A stretch of 64,000 nucleotides of DNA from Streptomyces spinoverrucosus (lineage in GTDB: Bacteria; Actinomycetota; Actinomycetes; Streptomycetales; Streptomycetaceae). The stretch's first letter is position 1; each line of letters starts with the position of its first letter. Positions 29,157 to 47,576 of the stretch are shown one piece after another. Location of the stretch: the NCBI RefSeq assembly GCF_015712165.1, contig NZ_JADPZX010000001.1:744001-808000 (forward strand), in the 5' to 3' direction. The notes under the pieces are model-generated. The model was not told the DNA's origin, did not search any database, and saw nothing but the letters and a program-made list of their open reading frames with translations. The position numbers and the translations under genes are program-made.

Positions 29157-31058
29157 TCATCCGGCTGGTCCGCTCCCGTCGTGCCGGGCGGGGTGGTCCG
29201 GGGTCATATGGGCGGCCTCCATGTGCGGTGCCGCCATGGGGAATTGCGTCGGCATGGAGTGCGCGTCCGTGTGGCGGGCATCTGGAGCGGAGCCCGGTGG
29301 TGTGTGGGCGCGCTCCATGCGAGGAGGCTCCTGGTGGGTGGACGCAGAGTGGGCGGGTGCCGAGTGGGCGGATGCCGAGTGGGCGGACTGTGCCTGCTGG
29401 GCGGACTGTGCCTGCTGCTGGGCCTCGGCGAGGCCGATACCGCGCTGGAACGCCGCCATCAGGCCGGGGTCGTGGCCGACGAGGTGCTCGCTCTCCTGGC
29501 GGGGTGCGGGGCCGCCGCGCAGTTGGGGTGCGATGTGCTGCTGGGCGCGGCGCCGCGGCAGTTGGGGCTTGCCCATGGTGCCGCGGACGGTGCCGGTGCG
29601 GGGGGTGGGCGGTGCGGCGGCGTGTTCCTCGACGGCCGGCCGGTCTTCGGGCCGGATGCCGGGTACGGCCTCGGCGGGGTTGGGCCGCTCCTCGTGGGTG
29701 CCGCGGACCGGCAGGGGCGAGGGCCCGGTGCCGGGGGGAGCCGGTGCCGTGCCGGCGTCGGGGGCGGGCTGGTGGTGCTGTGGTGGCGGGGCGGGCCGGG
29801 CGGCGTCGGGCTGGTGGTGCTGTGGGGCCTGGCCGAGGCGGGCGGTGTCGGGCTGGTTGCCGAGCAGCGCCTGCGGCACGACGAGGACGGCCTGGACACC
29901 GCCGTAGATGTTGGTCTGCAGGCGGACGGTGATGCCGTGCCGCCGGGCGAGCTGCGAGACGACGAACAGTCCGATGCGGCCGTCCGCGAGCAGGCGGGCG
30001 ACATTGACCTGGTCGGGGTCGGTGAGCAGCGCGTTCATCTTGTGCTGCTCGGCGACGGGCATACCGAGGCCGCGGTCCTCGACCTCTACGGCGAGCCCGG
30101 AGGTGACGAGGTTGGCGCGCAGCAGCACCTGGGTCTGCGGGGCGGAGAACACCGTGGCGTTCTCGACGAGTTCGGCCAGCAGATGGATCACGTCGGCGAC
30201 GGCGTGGCCGCGCAGGGTGCCGTCGATCGGCGGCACCAGGCGCACCCGCGAGTACTGCTCGACCTCGGCGATGGCCGAGCGCAGCACCTCGGTCATGGAG
30301 ACCGGGTTGCTCCACTGGCGGCGGGAGACGGCGCCGCCGAGCACGGCGAGGTTCTCGGCGTGGCGGCGGATGCGGGTGGCGAGGTGGTCGACGTGGAAGA
30401 GGCCCTTGAGCAGGTCGGGGTCCTCGATCTCGTTCTCCAGCTCGTCGAGGATCGCGATCTCGCGGTGCACCAGCGACTGGAGGCGCCGGGCGAGGTTGAC
30501 GAAGACTTCCAGCTTCTGTTCGCTGCCGGCCTGGCTGGAGAGTTGGGCGGCCTGCACGACGGCGGTGACGGCGCTGTCGTGCGCGCGGGCCAGGTCGGCG
30601 GCGAGCAGTTCGAAGTCGTCGGCGTCCGCGGGTGGACCGCCCCTCGGCTTGCGCGGCGGCGGCACCTCGCCCCGGCGCAACGCCTCGACGAGGGAGCGGA
30701 GATCGGCCTCGCGGCGGGCGCTGCTGCGGCGCAGCGCACCGACGCGTTCGTGGACGCCGCGGGCGGCCCGGCCGGCGGCGATCGCGGCGATCCCGATGCC
30801 GACGAGCGTCACGGCGATCGCGCCGGCGAGTACGGCCCACAGGGTGAGGCTGGTGCGGGCGCCGGTGGAGCGGACGGTGAAGAGCACGGCCGCGCAGGCG
30901 CTGAGGGCGACCGCGACCGGCGGCAGTACGGCGAGACGCAGCAGCTGGGGCCGTATGTGGGCCTCGGGCAGCGAGGGAACGGTGTGGGCGACCGGCCGCC
31001 CGTGCCGCCCGCCCTCGCGGCGGTCTGCGCGTGCGGCCGGTGCGCGGAGGTGTGACAT
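29157..31058 (-). CDS. cvnA: Conservon sensor-kinase-like ATPase (CvnA-like)
   Basis: A 633-residue protein. Two transmembrane helices (about residues 38-90) have only a short segment between them; they are followed by a coiled region with LNxxxR-type dimer helices (VNLARRLQSLVHREIAILDELENE). A HATPase_c domain follows, with N-box LAELVENATVFSAPQTQV and G-box VEDRGLGM. The C-terminal 240 residues are disordered: Pro/Gln/His-rich, ending in Ala-His-Ser repeats. No phospho-accepting histidine of a normal kinase is evident, as for other CvnA proteins. ATG 31058 is used. It is the first gene of the conservon. Confidence 0.92.
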   Translation of the reverse strand: MSHLRAPAARADRREGGRHGRPVAHTVPSLPEAHIRPQLLRLAVLPPVAVALSACAAVLFTVRSTGARTSLTLWAVLAGAIAVTLVGIGIAAIAAGRAARGVHERVGALRRSSARREADLRSLVEALRRGEVPPPRKPRGGPPADADDFELLAADLARAHDSAVTAVVQAAQLSSQAGSEQKLEVFVNLARRLQSLVHREIAILDELENEIEDPDLLKGLFHVDHLATRIRRHAENLAVLGGAVSRRQWSNPVSMTEVLRSAIAEVEQYSRVRLVPPIDGTLRGHAVADVIHLLAELVENATVFSAPQTQVLLRANLVTSGLAVEVEDRGLGMPVAEQHKMNALLTDPDQVNVARLLADGRIGLFVVSQLARRHGITVRLQTNIYGGVQAVLVVPQALLGNQPDTARLGQAPQHHQPDAARPAPPPQHHQPAPDAGTAPAPPGTGPSPLPVRGTHEERPNPAEAVPGIRPEDRPAVEEHAAAPPTPRTGTVRGTMGKPQLPRRRAQQHIAPQLRGGPAPRQESEHLVGHDPGLMAAFQRGIGLAEAQQQAQSAQQAQSAHSASAHSAPAHSASTHQEPPRMERAHTPPGSAPDARHTDAHSMPTQFPMAAPHMEAAHMTPDHPARHDGSGPAG

Positions 31059-38978: not shown

Positions 38979-40400
38979 TCAGCGGTTGGCCACCGCCTGC
39001 TTCACCAGCGTCTTCCCGAAGTCCCACACCAGCCCGCCCCCGCTGTGCGCGTCGTCCATCACCGCCGTGAAGGCGTCCACGAACCGGTCCACCTCCCGCT
39101 CCCCGATGATCAGCGGCGGAATCAGCTTGATCACCTCCAGGTGGTCGCCGGAGACCTGGGTGAGGATCCGGTGCCGCTGAAGCAGCGGTACGACGACCAT
39201 CTGCGCGAACAGCCCCTTGCGGGCGGCCTGCAGCATGGCCCAGCGGCTGCGCAGCTTCAGCGACTGGGGCCGCCCGAACTCGATGCCGACCATCAACCCC
39301 CGGCCGCGTACGTCCGCGAGCATCTCGTACTTGTCGATCAGCGCGGCCAGCCGGGATCTGAGCAGCTCGCCCGTGGCGCGGGCGTTCGCGACGAGCCGCT
39401 CGTCCGCCATGACGGACAGCACCGCCAGGCCTGCCGCCATGGCCTGGGCGTTCGACCCGAAGCTGGCCGAGTGGACCAGCACCCGGTCCATGGACGAGTA
39501 GACCTTCTTGAAGATCCAGTCCTTGCCGAGCGTGGCCCCCACCGGCACATAACCGCCCGACAGCGCCTTCGCCACGCAGACCAGGTCCGGCTCGACGCCC
39601 TCCTCGTGCTGGTAGGCGTAGAAGTCGCCGGTGCGGCCGAGGCCCGTCTGCACCTCGTCCGCGATGAGCAGCGCCTTGTGCCGGTGCAGCAGCTCCTGTG
39701 CGGCACGCAGATAGCCGGGCGGGGCCGCGTGCACGCCCTTGCCCTGGATCGGCTCGACGATCAGCGCGGCGACGTCGCCCCGCTTCAGCTCCCGGGCGAG
39801 CGCGGCGAGATCGCCGAGCGGTACGGCCGTGTCGGGCAGCAGCGGGGCGAAGCCGTCGCGGAAGGCCGACTCGCCGTTCACGGACAGCGAGCCGGTGGTC
39901 AGGCCGTGGAAGGCGTGCGCGCAGTACAGGACCCTCGGCCTGCCGGTGACGAACCGGGCGAACTTCAGGGCGGTCTCCACGGCCTCCGTACCGCTGTTGC
40001 CGAAGAACACCCGGTCCAGGTGCGGGCTGTGCGCGAGCAGCCGCTCGGCCAGCAGCCCGGGCAGCGGCTGGCAGTCGAACCGGGTGAGGTCTGCGAGCTG
40101 CGCGTCCAGGACGTCGTGCAGCGCCTTGCGGACGACGGGGTGGTGGCGGCCCAGGCCCATCACCCCGAAGCCGGCGAGCATGTCCAGGTAGTCGTTGCCG
40201 TCCGCGTCCCAGAAGTAGGCGCCCTCGGCCCGCTCGTAGACCTTGTCGAAGCCGATCGTGTGCAGCATGCGCGGCAGCTGGTGGTTGAGGTACCGGGCGT
40301 GCAGCTCGTAGCGCTCGGCTCCGCGCTCGGCGAGCAGCGCGCCGAGGTCGAAGCCGCCGCCGGGCGCCGCGGGTTGGGAGGCGGATTCCGCGGTGGTCAT
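38979..40400 (-). CDS. hpnO: Hopanoid aminotransferase HpnO
   Basis: A 473-residue class-III PLP aminotransferase. PLP binding is through [38 protein letters not shown] and the lysine in [14 protein letters not shown]. In hopanoid clusters this enzyme converts ribosylhopane-derived aldehyde to 35-aminobacteriohopanetriol. The start ATG overlaps the dxs stop as ATGA. Its place at the end of the operon, after hpnG, hpnH, ispG and dxs, is the usual Streptomyces arrangement and supports the specific call over a general acetylornithine-type aminotransferase. Confidence 0.93.
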
Positions 40401-42652
40401 GGGTGGCTCTCCTTGGACGGCGATTCCTCGGCGACGGTCTCCTTGGAGGACTGCTCCGGTACGACGGTCTCCTGGGAGGACCGCTCCGGCACGACGGCCT
40501 CCTCGAAGGACCGCTCCGGCACGACCGCCTCCTCGAAGGACCCCTCCGGCACGACCGCCTCCTCGAAGGACCCCTCCGGCACGACGGCCTCCTCGAAGGA
40601 CCCCTCCGGCACGACGGCCTCCTCGAAGGCCCCCTCCGGCACGACGGCCTCCTCGAAGGACCCCTCCGGCACGACGGCCTCCTCGAAGGACCCCTCCGGC
40701 ACGACGGCCTCCTCGAAGGACCGCTGCGCTACGACGGTCTCCTTGGACGGCCTTTCCGGCACGACGGTCTCCCGGAACTGCTCCTCCCTCACCGCCAGAC
40801 TCGCGCCGATCCGCCCGGCGATCTCGACCGGCGTGAGACCGATGTCGGCCAGTACCTCGGCCCGCTTGGCATGCGCCAGGAACTGCTCCGGGATGCCGAA
40901 CCGCCGTACCGGCACATCCACGTCGGCATCACCGAGCGCCAGCGCCACAGCCGCGCCGACCCCCGACGCCCGGCTGTTGTCCTCGACCACGGCCACCAGC
41001 CGATGCCCGGCGGCGAGGCCGGGAAGCGCGGGATCGACGGGCTTGACCCACCGCGGGTCCACCACCGTGCACCCGATCCCCCGCGCTTCAAGCAGCTCGG
41101 CTGCCTGTAGACACACCGGCGCCATGACCCCGACCGCGACGAGCAGCACCTCCGGTGCGTCGGCCCGTCGCAGTACGTCGATGCCGCCCACCCGGTCGAT
41201 CGCGGGGACGTTCGGCCCCACCGACTCCTTCGGGAACCGCACCAGCGTGGGCGCGTCGTCGACGGCGACCGCCTCGCGCAGCTGCGCCCGCAACTGGTCG
41301 GCGTCACGCGGCGCCGCGATCCGCAGCCCCGGTACGACCTGGAGGATCGACATGTCCCACATGCCGTTGTGCGAGGGCCCGTCGACACCCGTCACGCCGG
41401 CCCGGTCCAGGACGAAGGTCACCCCGCTGCGGTGCAGCGCCACGTCCATCAGGAGCTGGTCGAAGGCGCGGTTGAGGAAGGTGGCGTAGACGGCGACGAC
41501 CGGGTGGAGCCCGCCGGTGGCGAGCCCGGCCGCGGAGACGGCCGCGTGCTGCTCGGCGATGCCGACGTCCCAGACCCGGTCCGGGAACCGCTCGGCGAAC
41601 TTGGCGAGCCCGACCGGGTGCAGCATGGCCGCCGTGATCGCCACGACGTCCTCCCGCTCCTCGCCGATCTTGACGATCTCGTCGCCGAACACCGAGGTCC
41701 AGGACGGACCGTTGGAGGGCGCCAGCGGCTCGCAGGTCAGCGGGTCCATCACACCGACGGTGTGGAAGTGGTCCTCCTCGTGCGCGAGGGCGGGTTCGTA
41801 GCCGCGGCCCTTCTCGGTGAGGCAGTGCACGAGCACCGGCCCGTGGAAGCGTTTCGCGCGCCGCAGCGCCGACTCGACGGCCTTGACGTCGTGCCCGTCG
41901 ATCGGCCCGACGTACTTCAGGCCGAGGTCCTCGAACATCCCCTGCGGCGCGAACGCGTCCTTGAAGCCCTTCTTGGCGCCGTGCAGAGCCTCGTAGAGGG
42001 TGTGCCCGACGACCGGCGTGCTCAGCAGGACGTCCTTGCCCCAGGCCAGCACCTTCTCGTAGGAGTCGGTGGTGCGCAGCGCCGCGAGATGGTTGGCGAG
42101 GCCGCCGATGGTCGGGGCGTAGGAGCGCTCGTTGTCGTTGACGACGATGATCAGCGGCCGGTTCTTGGCCGCCGCGATGTTGTTCAGCGCCTCCCAGGCC
42201 ATGCCGCCGGTCAGCGCGCCGTCGCCGATCACCGCGACGACATGGCCCTTCTCCCCCTGTACCTGGCGGGCCTTGGCGAGTCCGTCGGCCCAACCGAGGG
42301 CGGTGGAGGCGTGGCTGTTCTCGATGACGTCGTGCTCGGACTCCTCGCGCGAGGGATAGCCGGACAGGCCGCCCTTGCCGCGCAGCTTGGAGAAGTCCTG
42401 ACGCCCTGTCAGCAGTTTGTGTACGTAGCTCTGGTGGCCGGTGTCCCACAGGATGCTGTCGACCGGCGACTCGAAGACCCGGTGGAGCGCGATGGACAGT
42501 TCCACCACACCCAGATTGGGCCCGAGGTGGCCGCCGGTCCTGGCGACCGCCTGCACCAGGAACTCCCTGATCTCTTCGGACAGTTCGCCAAGTTGCGCCT
42601 CGGTCAGCGCCTTCAGGTCGCGCGGTCCCCGGATGGTCTCCAGAATCGACAC
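40397..42652 (-). CDS. dxs: 1-deoxy-D-xylulose-5-phosphate synthase with a repeat tail
   Basis: A 751-residue Dxs. Residues 1-622 are a complete enzyme: TPP motif [15 protein letters not shown], catalytic [18 protein letters not shown] and the C-terminal domain ending [15 protein letters not shown]. It condenses pyruvate and glyceraldehyde-3-phosphate, the first MEP-pathway step. Residues 623-751 are an extra tail of about 13 decapeptide repeats (consensus [10 protein letters not shown]) that ordinary Dxs proteins (about 620-650 residues) lack. The tail is acidic and hydrophobic in alternation. GTG 42652 is used, with GAGAGGGGG upstream. It is coupled to hpnO by ATGA and gives the operon its own precursor supply. 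Confidence 0.93.
40400..40786. repeat. 30-bp tandem repeat array encoding the Dxs tail
   Basis: About 13 units of 30 bp. The central units are nearly identical at DNA level (CTCCTCGAAGGACCCCTCCG and so on), while the outer units diverge (KETV/QETV variants), a pattern of internal expansion. All units keep the frame. The copy number could be strain-variable and could be miscounted by short-read assembly. Confidence 0.95.
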
Positions 42653-42684: not shown

Positions 42685-43860
42685 TCAGCTCACGGTCACT
42701 GCCGGTTTCCCCGTGACGTCGGGGGAGCCCGTCGCTGCCCCGTCCCGCTCCATCTGCTCGGCGATCTTCATCGCCTCTTCGATCAGCGTCTCCACGATCT
42801 TCGACTCGGGAACGGTCTTGATGACCCTGCCCTTGACGAAGATCTGCCCCTTGCCGTTGCCGGAGGCGACCCCCAGGTCCGCCTCCCGCGCCTCGCCGGG
42901 GCCGTTCACCACACACCCCATGACGGCGACACGCAGCGGCACCTCCATGCCGTCCAGCCCGGCGGTGACCTCGTCGGCCAGCTTGTAGACGTCCACCTGG
43001 GCGCGCCCGCAGGACGGGCACGACACGATCTCCAGTCGCCGCTGCCTGAGGTTCAGCGACTCCAGGATCTGGATGCCGACCTTGACCTCCTCGGCGGGCG
43101 GAGCGCTCAACGACACCCTGATGGTGTCGCCGATCCCCTGCGAGAGCAGTGCTCCGAAAGCGACCGCCGACTTGATCGTGCCCTGGAAGGCGGGACCGGC
43201 CTCGGTCACCCCCAGATGCAGCGGGTAGTCGCACTGCGCGGCCAGCTGCCGGTACGCCTCGATCATCACGACCGGGTCGTTGTGCTTGACGGAGATCTTG
43301 ATGTCCCGGAAGTCGTGCTCCTCGAAGAGCGAGGCCTCCCACAGCGCCGACTCCACGAGCGCCTCGGGCGTGGCCTTGCCGTACTTCTGGAGCAGCCGCC
43401 GGTCCAGGGAGCCGGCGTTCACGCCGATCCGGATCGGCGTGCCGTGGTCCCGGGCCGCCCGGGCGATCTCCTTGACCTTGTCGTCGAACTGCTTGATGTT
43501 GCCGGGATTCACCCGTACGGCCGCACAGCCGGCCTCGATCGCGGCGAACACGTACTTCGGCTGGAAGTGGATGTCCGCGATCACCGGGATCTGCGACTTA
43601 CGGGCGATGGTGGCGAGCGCGTCCGCGTCGTCCTGCGTCGGGCAGGCCACCCGGACGATCTGGCAGCCGGAGGCCGTGAGCTCGGCGATCTGCTGGAGGG
43701 TGGCGCCGATGTCCGACGTTCGGGTCGTCGTCATCGACTGCACCGACACCGGCGCCCCGCCCCCGACCGCCACCGGCCCGACCTGGATCTGCCGCGACAG
43801 GCGCCGCTCGGCGATCGGTCGCGCCGGTACCTCGGGGACGCCCAGGGGGATGGCGGTCAT
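42685..43860 (-). CDS. ispG: 4-hydroxy-3-methylbut-2-enyl diphosphate synthase IspG (GcpE)
   Basis: A 391-residue IspG: TIM barrel ([32 protein letters not shown] analogue, RVNPGNIK) plus a C-terminal 4Fe-4S domain with ligand cysteines in [10 protein letters not shown] and [11 protein letters not shown]. It makes HMBDP in the MEP pathway. Streptomyces genomes normally have a second ispG elsewhere, so this is likely the pathway-specific copy of the hopanoid operon. ATG 43860 starts four bases after the hpnH stop; it ends 32 bases before dxs begins. Confidence 0.95.
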
Positions 43861-43864
43861 GACG

Positions 43865-44887
43865 TCACTCCCGGTTTCCGGAGACCGTCTCGCGCATGGC
43901 GCGCAGCGACTCCTTCAGCGAGCCCATGGTGGCGAGGACGGCGGTGGGCTCGTAGCCGCAGTGCGCCATGCAGTTGGCGCAGCGCGGGTCCTTGCCGCGG
44001 CCGTACTTGTCCCAGTCGGTGTCCTCGATCAGTTCGCGGTACGTCGACACGTACCCGTCGCTCATCAGATAGCAGGGGCGCTGCCAGCCGAAGAGCGAGT
44101 AGTTGGGGATCGCCCACGCGGTGCACGGGAAGTCGACCTTGCCCTCCAGGAAGTCCAGGAAGAGCGGGGAGTGGTTGAGCCGCCAGCGGCGCCGGTTGCC
44201 GCCCGCGAAGGCCTTCTTGAACAGTTCGCGGGTCTGCTCCACACCCAGGAAGTGCTCCTGGTCGGGCGCCTTCTCGTAGGCGTAGGCGGGCGAGATCATC
44301 ATCTCGTCGACCTTGAGGTCGTCGTTGAGGTAGTTCAGCACCTCGATGACGGTCTGCGGGGTGTCGGTGTTGAAGAAGGTGGAGTTGGTGGTGACCCGGA
44401 AGCCGCGGCGCTTGGCCTCCTTGATGGCCTCCACCGCCTCGTCGAACACGCCCTCCTTCGCGACCGACTCGTCGTGCCGCTCACGCAGGCCGTCGATGTG
44501 CACGGCGAAGGCGAAGTAGGGCGAGGGCTTGAACTTGTCCATCTTCTTGCGCAGCAGCATGGCGTTGGTGCACAGGAAGACGTACTTCCGTTTGGCCACC
44601 AACTGCCGCACGATCTCGTCGATCTGAGGGTGCATCAGGGGCTCGCCGCCCGCGATCGACACCATCGGCGCACCGGACTCCAGTACCGCTCCCACGGCCT
44701 GCGCGACCGGCATGCGCTGCTTCAGCACCCCGGCGGGGTGCTGGATCTTGCCGCAGCCCTCGCACTTGAGGTTGCAGGCGAACAGGGGCTCCAGCTCGAC
44801 GATGAGCGGGAACTTGTCGCGCCTGCGGAGCTTCTGTTCAGCCAAATATGTAGCGACCTTGATGGACTGGCGCAGCGGCATGGCCAT
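43865..44887 (-). CDS. hpnH: Radical-SAM hopanoid enzyme HpnH
   Basis: A 340-residue radical SAM protein. The cluster motif is C38-x3-C42-x2-C45 (ACNLKCEGC) with a [12 protein letters not shown]-binding loop, and a C-terminal cysteine-rich region ([12 protein letters not shown]). HpnH adds an adenosyl group to hopene to give adenosylhopane, the first side-chain step. ATG 44887 follows AGGAGGTGA, a near-perfect Shine-Dalgarno, five bases away; GTG 44896 and ATG 44881 are also in frame. It begins five bases after the hpnG stop. Confidence 0.95.
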
Positions 44888-44892
44888 CGGGC

Positions 44893-45534
44893 TCACCTCC
44901 TGGGGAGCAGCACATTACGGTGCCATTCAAAGAATGCGGGAAGAATGGAACGAAGGACGCGGAAAGCCGATATTCCACCGCGCACCGTGCCGATACGGAC
45001 GAGTTCATGTTCTGGAGCGTCCACGACCACCCGGACGGCCGCAACCGGACGTGCTCCCGCACGCCCGGCGCCGAGAAGCGTTGCGGCCGACTCCATGTCG
45101 ACCGCGATTGCGCCGGTGGCCAGCAGGCCGGACCGCTCCTGACCGCGTACGACGTGGTCGGATCCGGTGAGCGGGCCGGTGTGGACGGTACGGCCGGGCA
45201 CCGTACGCCCGAGTTCCTTGACGAGCAGGTCGGTGCCCACGCAGGGCGTGGAGCCACGCGGGTCCCGGGTCTCCTCGGCGACGACCAGGTCACCGGGGTG
45301 CATGCCGGGTGCCAGCCCCGCGCAGAAGCCGGTGGCCAGCACGGCGGCCCCGGCGAGTGCGGGGTCGGCCAGCGCCCGCACGACGGACCGCTCGGCCGCC
45401 CCGGGACCCATGCCCGTACGCAGCACGGTCACCGGCCCAGCCGCACCACCACGCTCCCCCAGCCGCAGCGCCAGCCGCTCGATACCGAGCGCACAGGCGA
45501 TCAGCAGCGGCGGCGGAGCGGAGGAGGGGCTCAT
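44893..45534 (-). CDS. hpnG: Hopanoid nucleoside phosphorylase HpnG
   Basis: A 213-residue member of the purine-nucleoside-phosphorylase superfamily: VLRTGMGPGAAERSV, LATGFCAGLAPGMHPGDLVVAEE and AIAVDMESAATLLGA. HpnG removes adenine from adenosylhopane to give (phospho)ribosylhopane, following HpnH. Its ATG overlaps the shc stop as ATGA. The protein starts directly with a polar N-terminus, with no membrane segment. Confidence 0.92.
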   Translation of the reverse strand: MSPSSAPPPLLIACALGIERLALRLGERGGAAGPVTVLRTGMGPGAAERSVVRALADPALAGAAVLATGFCAGLAPGMHPGDLVVAEETRDPRGSTPCVGTDLLVKELGRTVPGRTVHTGPLTGSDHVVRGQERSGLLATGAIAVDMESAATLLGAGRAGARPVAAVRVVVDAPEHELVRIGTVRGGISAFRVLRSILPAFFEWHRNVLLPRR

Positions 45535-47576
45535 CCGGTCCCCTCGACCTCGGCGAGCGGCCGACCGCCGGTCCGCGCGGCGAGCCCGCCGGCGCCGCCT
45601 TTCGCGAAGGGCTCGCCGTGCACATACCGCCCCAGCGCCGTGAGCGGAAACACCTGCCGGTACAGGTGGTAGTTGATCGAGAAGTCCCACGGGAAGCCCG
45701 TCCCCGTGAAGTACGGCTCGTCCCACGAGCCGTCCTCCCGCTGGGTCGCGGCCAGCCACTCGATGCCGCGTTCGACGGCCTTGGAGTCCCGCTCGCCGGC
45801 CGCCAGCAGCGCCATCAGCGCCCAGGCGGTCTGCGAGGCGGTGGAGGCGCCCCTGCCGCTCCACTCCTTGACGTACTGGTACGAGCGCAGGTCCTCGCCC
45901 CAGCCGCCGTCGTCGTTCTGGACGCTCTCCAGCCAGGCCACCGCCCGCCGGATCGCCGGGTGCGAGCCGGGGAGACCGGCGGCGGTCAGCGCGGGCACCA
46001 CGGACCCGGTGCCGTAGACGTAGTTGACGCCCCAGCGTCCGAACCACGAGCCGTCCGGCTCCTGTTCGCCGAGCAGCCACTCGATGCCGCGCCGGGTGCG
46101 CGGGTCGTGGGTGAGGCCCTCCACCGCGAGCATCTCGACGACGTGCGCGGTGACGTCCGCGGACGGCGGGTCGATGACCTCGCCGAAGTCGCAGAACGGC
46201 AGCCGGTTGGGGAACGGGCTGGTGTTGTCGACGTCGAAGGCGCCCCAGGCGCCGTCCTTCGACTGCATGCCGAGGTTCCAGCGCACCCCGCGCGCGATGG
46301 CCTTCTCCACCCGCTCCGGGTCGTGATGCCGCACGCGGCGCAGCGCGAGGACGACCTCGGCGGTGTCGTCGATGTCGGGGTAGTTGTCGTTGTGGAACTC
46401 GAACGCCCATCCGCCGGGCGGTAGTTGAGGCCGCCGCACGGACCAGTCGCCGGGGCGCACGATCTGCTCCCCCAGCATCCAGTCCGCCGCCTTCACCAGC
46501 TGCGGATGGTCCGCGGGCAGCCCGGCGTCGACGAGCGCGATGGTCGCCAGGCAGGTGTCCCACACCGGCGACTGGCAGGCCTCGATCATCCGGGCGCCGT
46601 CCTCGCGCCAGACGGCGTACCGGTCGAGGGACTCCAACCCGGCGCGCATGACGGGGTGTTGGAGGTCGTAGCCGAGCAGGTGGAGGGCGATGAGGGAGTA
46701 CACGGCCGGCGGCTGGATACCGCCCCAGCAGCCGTCGTTCTCCTGCCGCTCGATGATCCAGCGCGCGGCCGACCGCATCGCCGCCCTGCGCAGCTTCCTC
46801 GGCACGACCTTGCGCAGGGCGTGCAGGCCCTTGTCGAGCCGTTGGAAGGCGCCGTCCCAACTGGCCGCGGGCGCCAGGCGCTTCGCCGGACTGGGGTTGT
46901 TCGGATCGGTGTGCAGCTCGTCCAACGGGAAGGGCGCCGGCCGCACGGGGCGCTTCGCGGAGACGATGGTCAACGGGACGACCGTCTGCCGGGCCCAGCA
47001 GCCGAAGTCGTAGATGTTGAGCGGCACCCACTTCGGGAAGTAGATGAGTTCCGGCGGCAGTTCGGGCAGGTCGTCCCACTTCCACCAGCCGAACAGGGCG
47101 AGCCAGATGCGGGTGAAGACCCGGGACGCGGCGATGCCGCCCTGGGCGCGGATCCACTCCGCCGCCTTCGCCATGTGCGGCGCGTCCGGCGCGTCCCCGG
47201 CCAGGCGCAGGGCGACGTACGCCTCGATGGTGGTGGAGAGTTCGCCCGGTCCGCCGTGGAAGGTGGCCCAGGTGCCGTCCTCGCGCTGCTCGCCGCGGAT
47301 GAAGAGGGCGGCGGCGCGCGTCGTGGACTCGTCGCGGATGCCGAGGAACTGACGGAGCAGCAGGTCCTCGGCGTCCATGGTGACGTTGGTCTCCAGGTCG
47401 CCCTTCCACCAGCCCTGGGCGTCCTGTCGGGCCAGCAGGAAGTCGGTGGCGCGCTGGACCGCGTGTACGGCGGCTTCGTGGACCCCGGCCGCCACCGGGG
47501 TGGTGCTGTCGGTATCGCTGGCCGCGGCGGCGCGGGGCGGCACGGCCCCGGAGCTTCCGTCGGTCGTCGCTGTCAT
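45531..47576 (-). CDS. shc: Squalene-hopene cyclase
   Basis: A 681-residue terpene cyclase of usual length with many QW-type repeats (for example GGWGEDLRSYQ, GSWDEPYFTGTGFP, QDAQGWWKGDLE). The protonating motif DxDD is D401-I-D403-D404 in PDIDDTAEVV. It cyclises squalene to hopene/hopanol at the inner membrane face. ATG 47576 has GAAGGGGAAGCC upstream. It is coupled to hpnG. It is the central gene of the operon and identifies the whole unit as hopanoid biosynthesis. Confidence 0.97.
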   Translation of the reverse strand: MTATTDGSSGAVPPRAAAASDTDSTTPVAAGVHEAAVHAVQRATDFLLARQDAQGWWKGDLETNVTMDAEDLLLRQFLGIRDESTTRAAALFIRGEQREDGTWATFHGGPGELSTTIEAYVALRLAGDAPDAPHMAKAAEWIRAQGGIAASRVFTRIWLALFGWWKWDDLPELPPELIYFPKWVPLNIYDFGCWARQTVVPLTIVSAKRPVRPAPFPLDELHTDPNNPSPAKRLAPAASWDGAFQRLDKGLHALRKVVPRKLRRAAMRSAARWIIERQENDGCWGGIQPPAVYSLIALHLLGYDLQHPVMRAGLESLDRYAVWREDGARMIEACQSPVWDTCLATIALVDAGLPADHPQLVKAADWMLGEQIVRPGDWSVRRPQLPPGGWAFEFHNDNYPDIDDTAEVVLALRRVRHHDPERVEKAIARGVRWNLGMQSKDGAWGAFDVDNTSPFPNRLPFCDFGEVIDPPSADVTAHVVEMLAVEGLTHDPRTRRGIEWLLGEQEPDGSWFGRWGVNYVYGTGSVVPALTAAGLPGSHPAIRRAVAWLESVQNDDGGWGEDLRSYQYVKEWSGRGASTASQTAWALMALLAAGERDSKAVERGIEWLAATQREDGSWDEPYFTGTGFPWDFSINYHLYRQVFPLTALGRYVHGEPFAKGGAGGLAARTGGRPLAEVEGTG

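Follow-up and report, generated by a model that had tools for sequence, protein, structure and literature searches.

Functional repeat tails on actinobacterial enzymes are exemplified by Streptomyces topoisomerase I, with its lysine repeats, and by mycobacterial Ku, in both of which a catalytic core is likewise followed by a repetitive C-terminal tail (papers cited in PMC6821194). Judging by the titles of those papers, these tails act on DNA, whereas the tail of the Dxs enzyme described here is acidic. Another kind of precedent concerns the gene boundary: overlaps of 1 or 4 bases between genes are common, according to an excerpt of PMC2478687. Four-base overlaps in which the upstream gene carries the ribosome-binding site of its neighbor have the same ATGA and the same AGGAG in the last codons as the present locus, which differs from ordinary cases in that the unit bearing the binding site resembles the array units upstream of it. 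The nearest comparison is offered by the hopanoid-type Dxs (TIGR00204) of other Streptomyces: the same enzyme, with the same overlapping aminotransferase junction, ends in a variable tail of 6-83 residues built of other units, and among the loci compared the 30-nt period is shared only by the four other members of the same clade. In-frame tandem repeats and overlapping genes are both known kinds of feature, combined at this locus; the array was seen in no other Dxs among those examined. Among the open-licence papers listed, the titles and abstract openings point to no account of this Dxs tail.

The repeat array and its operon

The features under discussion are as follows, with positions in the window, by which we mean the whole 64-kb stretch of DNA that was analyzed:

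38979..40400, minus strand: class-III-type aminotransferase gene; its ATG (40400-40398) overlaps the dxs stop codon
40397..42652, minus strand: hopanoid-operon dxs, encoding 751 aa from the GTG at 42652-42650; the stop codon ends at 40397
40397..40786, minus strand: array of thirteen 30-nt units, encoding a 129-residue tail and the stop codon (TRF, unit table, shuffle test)
40397..40426, minus strand: terminal unit, with AAGGAG, 8 nt and the ATG within ATGA; contains the dxs stop codon
40487..40726, minus strand: the eight central units, which equal or closely approach the consensus decapeptide (unit table, distance matrix)
40727..40756, minus strand: outer unit, equal to the ribosome-binding-site unit at 20 of 30 bases and holding the 13-mer CCGTCCAAGGAGA
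42685..43860, minus strand: ispG of the operon (NF001540, 541.6 bits, cut-off 345)
43865..44896, minus strand: hpnH, adenosyl-hopene transferase (TIGR03470, 537 bits, cut-off 225)

The dxs gene belongs to the hopanoid operon by its position next to ispG and hpnH, with HpnH scoring above its cut-off; we take the gene at 45531-47576 to be that of squalene-hopene cyclase. The displayed NCBIfam matches that could supply an exact name for the aminotransferase all fall below their cut-offs, and we assume that it is HpnO-like. The dxs product is identified as Dxs by a whole-length match above the curated cut-off of TIGR00204 (607.3 bits against 465.95), spanning residues 4-617 of P0001, the called protein of 749 aa that starts two residues later. 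It contains the Pfam domains DXP_synthase_N, Transket_pyr and Transketolase_C, and its conserved part ends at about residue 619-620 (617-618 in P0001 numbering). Solved structures include 58 matching sequences; on the Dxs chains the best stretches reach residue 618 of P0001 at most, which leaves the tail outside all of them. A second Dxs, 74% identical, is encoded elsewhere in the genome.

The first-pass annotation had described a tail of about 129 residues with about 13 in-frame repeats, and this is what we find. Read in register from 40786 to 40397, the array comprises thirteen decapeptide units, which are less uniform than had been suggested: eight lie at or near the consensus, while the five diverged outer units are only related to it. 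Tandem Repeats Finder (TRF) reports the array at 40432-40772 with a period of 30, 11.4 copies, 91% matches and a score of 500, whereas the runner-up among separate arrays in the 64 kb, a 42-nt tandem repeat of 2.7 copies at 29740-29857, scores 139. The self-match score at a lag of 30 is 269, a value reached by none of 1000 codon shuffles; the array is an in-frame intragenic tandem repeat of period 30, beyond chance. Within its own genome (8.85 Mb, 5 contigs), the tail DNA has a single match at E<=0.001. Compared pairwise, the eight central units are 0-3 of 30 bases apart, with a mean of 38/28 = 1.4 of 30 bases, or 4.5%. Each contains phenylalanine, the one aromatic residue per unit, and each contains the motif GAGGAGG-N5-GTG, which occurs eight times in the tail and never in the core. 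Codon differences from the consensus unit number 24 non-synonymous and 5 synonymous; taken as raw counts, they show no purifying selection on the peptide.

The tail has a net charge of -26, excluding its last six residues, and matches no Pfam family. In a full-length AlphaFold model with 41 close relatives aligned, it appears as coil with pLDDT of about 26-37, and the core of the same model is also poor (mean pLDDT 51). Modeled alone, the tail reaches a mean pLDDT of 54.5 and a pTM of 0.10, with no confident fold. Both models are weak evidence on disorder, because the alignment is shallow and the core is poorly modeled too; the tail is probably disordered. With neither a Pfam family nor a confident fold, it does not qualify as a structured repeat protein such as a solenoid or a member of a known repeat family.

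Variable tails in related genes

We compared the gene ends of 98 other hopanoid-type dxs and 12 housekeeping dxs, with 79.5% identity to the core of the window's Dxs as the dividing line between the two types. The hopanoid-type sample consists of 29 loci that were the best matches among 392 genomes of the genus, the window's own included, and of a further 69 drawn from the 80 best loci retained; the other 11 of those 80, together with the genome's own second dxs, form the housekeeping sample. Since the loci are the best matches kept, the sample leans to close relatives. L001, a duplicate of L002, was removed before counting, and the pairs with identical cores (L011/L048, L026/L035 and L023/L054) were retained. 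The other hopanoid-type tails extend 6-83 residues beyond residue 618, with a median of 17, and their sequences are unrelated; the window's tail, at 131 residues, is 1.6 times the longest of them. The variation is a property of dxs more than of its neighbors: at the same loci, and counting neighboring genes where complete, the standard deviation of tail length is 12.4 for dxs (n=98), 4.0 for ispG (n=71), 0.8 for hpnH (n=78) and 0.8 for the aminotransferase (n=95). The ispG end of the window (42685-42772) extends 29 residues beyond the core, 6 more than the usual 23 in 71 other loci, and a long ispG end is also present in L003, L008 and L012 (29 residues) and in L004 (28). Net charge per residue, in the 30 tails of at least 25 residues, is -0.21 in the window and ranges from -0.20 to +0.23 in the others. 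Counted from one common point, 161 Dxs proteins among the matches listed have tails of 11-68 residues (median 24) against 136 in the window; P0001, P0002, P0013 and the off-pattern P0113 were left out of this list. Dxs length shifts by small in-frame steps even within named species: the lengths are 653, 659 and 665 aa in S. niveiscabiei and 659, 662 and 665 aa in S. longwoodensis (species names as in the sources). Variable tails are general among the hopanoid-type dxs compared, and the tail of the window is the most extreme of them.

In searches with the tail itself, no second Dxs of this kind came up among the matches inspected. Against the protein collection, where the 7996 best word-sharing candidates were scored, the tail gave 54 matches at E<=10, none with this array; P0002 and P0013 were inspected over their full length, and P0003-P0055 from residue 600 onward. 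A further search with residues 120-640 scored 8000 candidates, of which the best 120 were used. Among 200 genomes of the family, the window's own included, 18 have a match to the tail at E<=0.001; ten loci were examined, and the nine beyond the window's own gene lack a match to the Dxs core. Three plasmid records match the junction, none covering 80% of it. Within these searches, the array appears to be absent from every other Dxs examined. The earlier statement that no Dxs was known with such a tail stands for the array within these searches, and needs correcting in its wider sense: tails and tail repeats are common in related Dxs. The best tail-search match (E = 0.027) is P0002, a nicotinate-nucleotide--dimethylbenzimidazole phosphoribosyltransferase from Streptomyces bauhiniae with a similar composition. 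It is, however, another protein, with V/P/E-rich repeats at the N-terminus and another unit, and its likeness to the Dxs tail is probably convergence. The long N-terminal part of P0002 is rich in VVPEAVAPE-like repeats. Other repeat arrays came up in unrelated genes: outside the window, the same genome has a KKASAEKAVA-type decapeptide array at the N-terminus of an enzyme (L119:2920-5847, plus strand), presumably a glycogen branching enzyme; an open frame at L155, not a Dxs, has a VAPEGAARER-type decapeptide array; and one frame of L156 encodes RSLAP-type repeats in a long perfect run that looks like a 15-nt minisatellite (reading frames at L156-L158 were chosen roughly by script).

Repetition as such is frequent in these tails. 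In a scan of periods divisible by 3 only, tandem periodicity exceeds codon shuffles at p<0.01 in 24 of the 68 testable hopanoid-type tails and in 2 of the 12 housekeeping ones; 31 of the 99 tails were too short for the test. When every period is allowed and bases are shuffled, 26 of the 68 tails pass: two have a period of 7, and the periods of the other 24, between 9 and 39 nt, are multiples of 3. The longer repetitive tails (L020, L025, L047, L051, L071 and L100) fall in different clades of the maximum-likelihood core tree when it is read by eye, without a formal test, and on this reading tail repeats arise repeatedly. The 30-nt period is confined, among the loci compared, to the window's own clade of five members (support 99/94 on the same tree), where the window groups with L004 (98/46), followed by L003 (100/100) and then L008 and L012. 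The period is significant in each of the five (p 0.001), and the tails of the four other members measure 31, 31, 31 and 45 residues. The Dxs core of the window differs from that of L004, the nearest relative found, by 4.7% (11.5% at third positions). The central units, 4.5% apart, differ to about the same extent, which places the growth of the array at about the age of that split or later and agrees with the recent in-frame expansion first proposed.

The junction with the aminotransferase gene

What the first-pass annotation did not mention is that the tail ends in the apparent ribosome-binding site of the overlapping aminotransferase gene. In the window, a four-base ATGA overlap is preceded by AAGGAG 8 nt upstream within dxs, as expected of an overlapping gene pair. 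The arrangement is widespread: 92 of the 99 hopanoid-type dxs end in ATGA, and the others have the ATG right after the stop codon (five), GTGA (one) or TTGA (one). An AGGAG is present 5-11 nt before the aminotransferase start in 96 of the 99, at 8 nt in 85 (where there are several, the count takes the AGGAG closest to a distance of 8 nt). The overlap is found in none of the 12 housekeeping dxs, one of which has a start-like codon 3 nt past the stop, with GGAG. The AGGAG is read in one frame in 90 genes, mostly as -KE- and sometimes as -EE- or -QE-, and in another frame in six, which belong to two separate clades: QGEN in L067, L075, L076 and L079, and QGAGER and QGAAER in L096 and L097. The motif is kept while its reading frame changes; it is held as DNA, presumably serving the aminotransferase gene as its ribosome-binding site.

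The unit containing this site resembles outer units of the array more than chance would allow. Compared with the 12 upstream units, the 30-nt ribosome-binding-site unit has 12 to 20 bases equal, and its best matches (20, 17 and 16 of 30 bases) are three outer units; 1788 in-frame windows from the operon genes give a mean of 8.2, a standard deviation of 2.3 and a maximum of 16. The 64 kb contain the 13-mer CCGTCCAAGGAGA at just two places, the ribosome-binding site and the unit 40756-40727. We also compared the 18 nt around the binding site with the upstream tail, using codon shuffles. The resulting p-values are 0.001 in the window, 0.002 in L008, 0.02 in L003 and 0.06 in L012, whereas L004 is outside the 20 lowest and L051, from outside the clade, has 0.001. 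Over the genus, 8 of the 60 testable tails have p<0.05, where 3 are expected by chance. The values within the clade and the count over the genus together suggest that the array likely originated from the ribosome-binding-site unit in the window's clade, and we rejected such an origin as a rule for the genus.

Explanations for the array

Assembly errors at tandem arrays are a known problem, so the thirteen-unit copy number could in principle be an artefact of sequencing or assembly. The errors described in PMC6868369, however, mainly lose copies, the array being collapsed. The assembly has 5 contigs, point differences distinguish the units from one another and the period of 30 recurs in the separate assemblies of relatives; because of the latter two points especially, an artefact is unlikely. 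Among the functions first offered for the tail was self-assembly of Dxs, or scaffolding of the MEP and hopanoid enzymes at the membrane. The regular decapeptide with an aromatic residue in every central unit, the negative net charge and the described topoisomerase I and Ku tails speak for an acidic repeat of this kind. Neither length nor charge is conserved in relatives, however, nor is the sequence, and codon changes relative to the consensus unit are predominantly non-synonymous. As no tail feature conserved in relatives and no fold were found, scaffolding is unsupported, and we hold a protein-level function of this kind to be unlikely.

The array could instead act in translation, as an anti-Shine-Dalgarno ladder: ribosomes would be slowed, held or re-loaded ahead of the ATGA junction, and this would determine how much aminotransferase is made relative to Dxs. 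On this reading the tail has about twenty candidate sites, spaced roughly every 15 nt in its central part. At -8 kcal/mol or lower there are 18 sites in its 396 nt, compared with 10 in the 1854 nt of the core; central sites reach -11.3 kcal/mol, against -8.0 for the terminal ribosome-binding site. GAGGAGG-N5-GTG lies in frame in all eight central units, and only 1 of 300 synonymous resamplings attains 18 sites. At thresholds of -5, -6 and -7, on the other hand, the observed count is attained in 41%, 28% and 7% of resamplings, so that the peptide alone accounts for the sites there, and the copies of an array are not independent. Averaged over 58 tails, z is -0.27 (standard error 0.14), which suggests at most very weak genus-wide selection for Shine-Dalgarno-like tails, and the RNA folding of array and junction is unexceptional (z -0.58; 32 of 100 shuffles fold as well). 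The ladder is a real sequence property, and evidence for its putative action in Streptomyces is weak. We give little credence to its operation as a control element, and just as little to the related idea of a translational device made through successive copies of the unit with the next gene's binding site, of which the tail peptide would be only the shadow. If true, changes in the number of copies would slowly tune the aminotransferase/Dxs ratio.

We consider it probable that the array is an overgrown, presumably unstructured spacer that fills the stretch from the end of the Dxs fold to the next gene's ribosome-binding site. A 30-nt segment with the binding site would have been duplicated in the ancestor of the clade. 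The copy beside the start codon would have retained the site, while the upstream copies, released from this duty, could diverge into spacer; in this strain, one copy would then have been amplified to eight near-identical units by replication slippage or unequal exchange. Changes that preserved the frame would have survived, and the acidic 129-residue tail would be tolerated with no specific function of its own, perhaps with slight effects on solubility or coupled translation. Of the three options first listed for the tail, (nearly) neutral growth fits best. The comparison of relatives shows that DNA features fix the end of the gene, and that the region from residue 618 to the binding site varies freely in length and sequence, in many cases through in-frame tandem repeats. 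Given its 131-residue length and the phenylalanine in its eight central units, there may nevertheless be some selection for the window's tail.

What drives the evolution of this enzyme's C-terminal tail seems to be found in the DNA of its neighbor gene: the binding site is kept, the peptide that its DNA encodes is not, and the unit that holds the site can multiply into a long tail. This is a caution against assigning a function to every repeat tail. The hopanoid-type dxs genes also provide a natural series, one enzyme with tails of 6 to 131 residues, that could be used for testing effects on coupled translation, and the same series is suited to testing Shine-Dalgarno-like sites inside genes.
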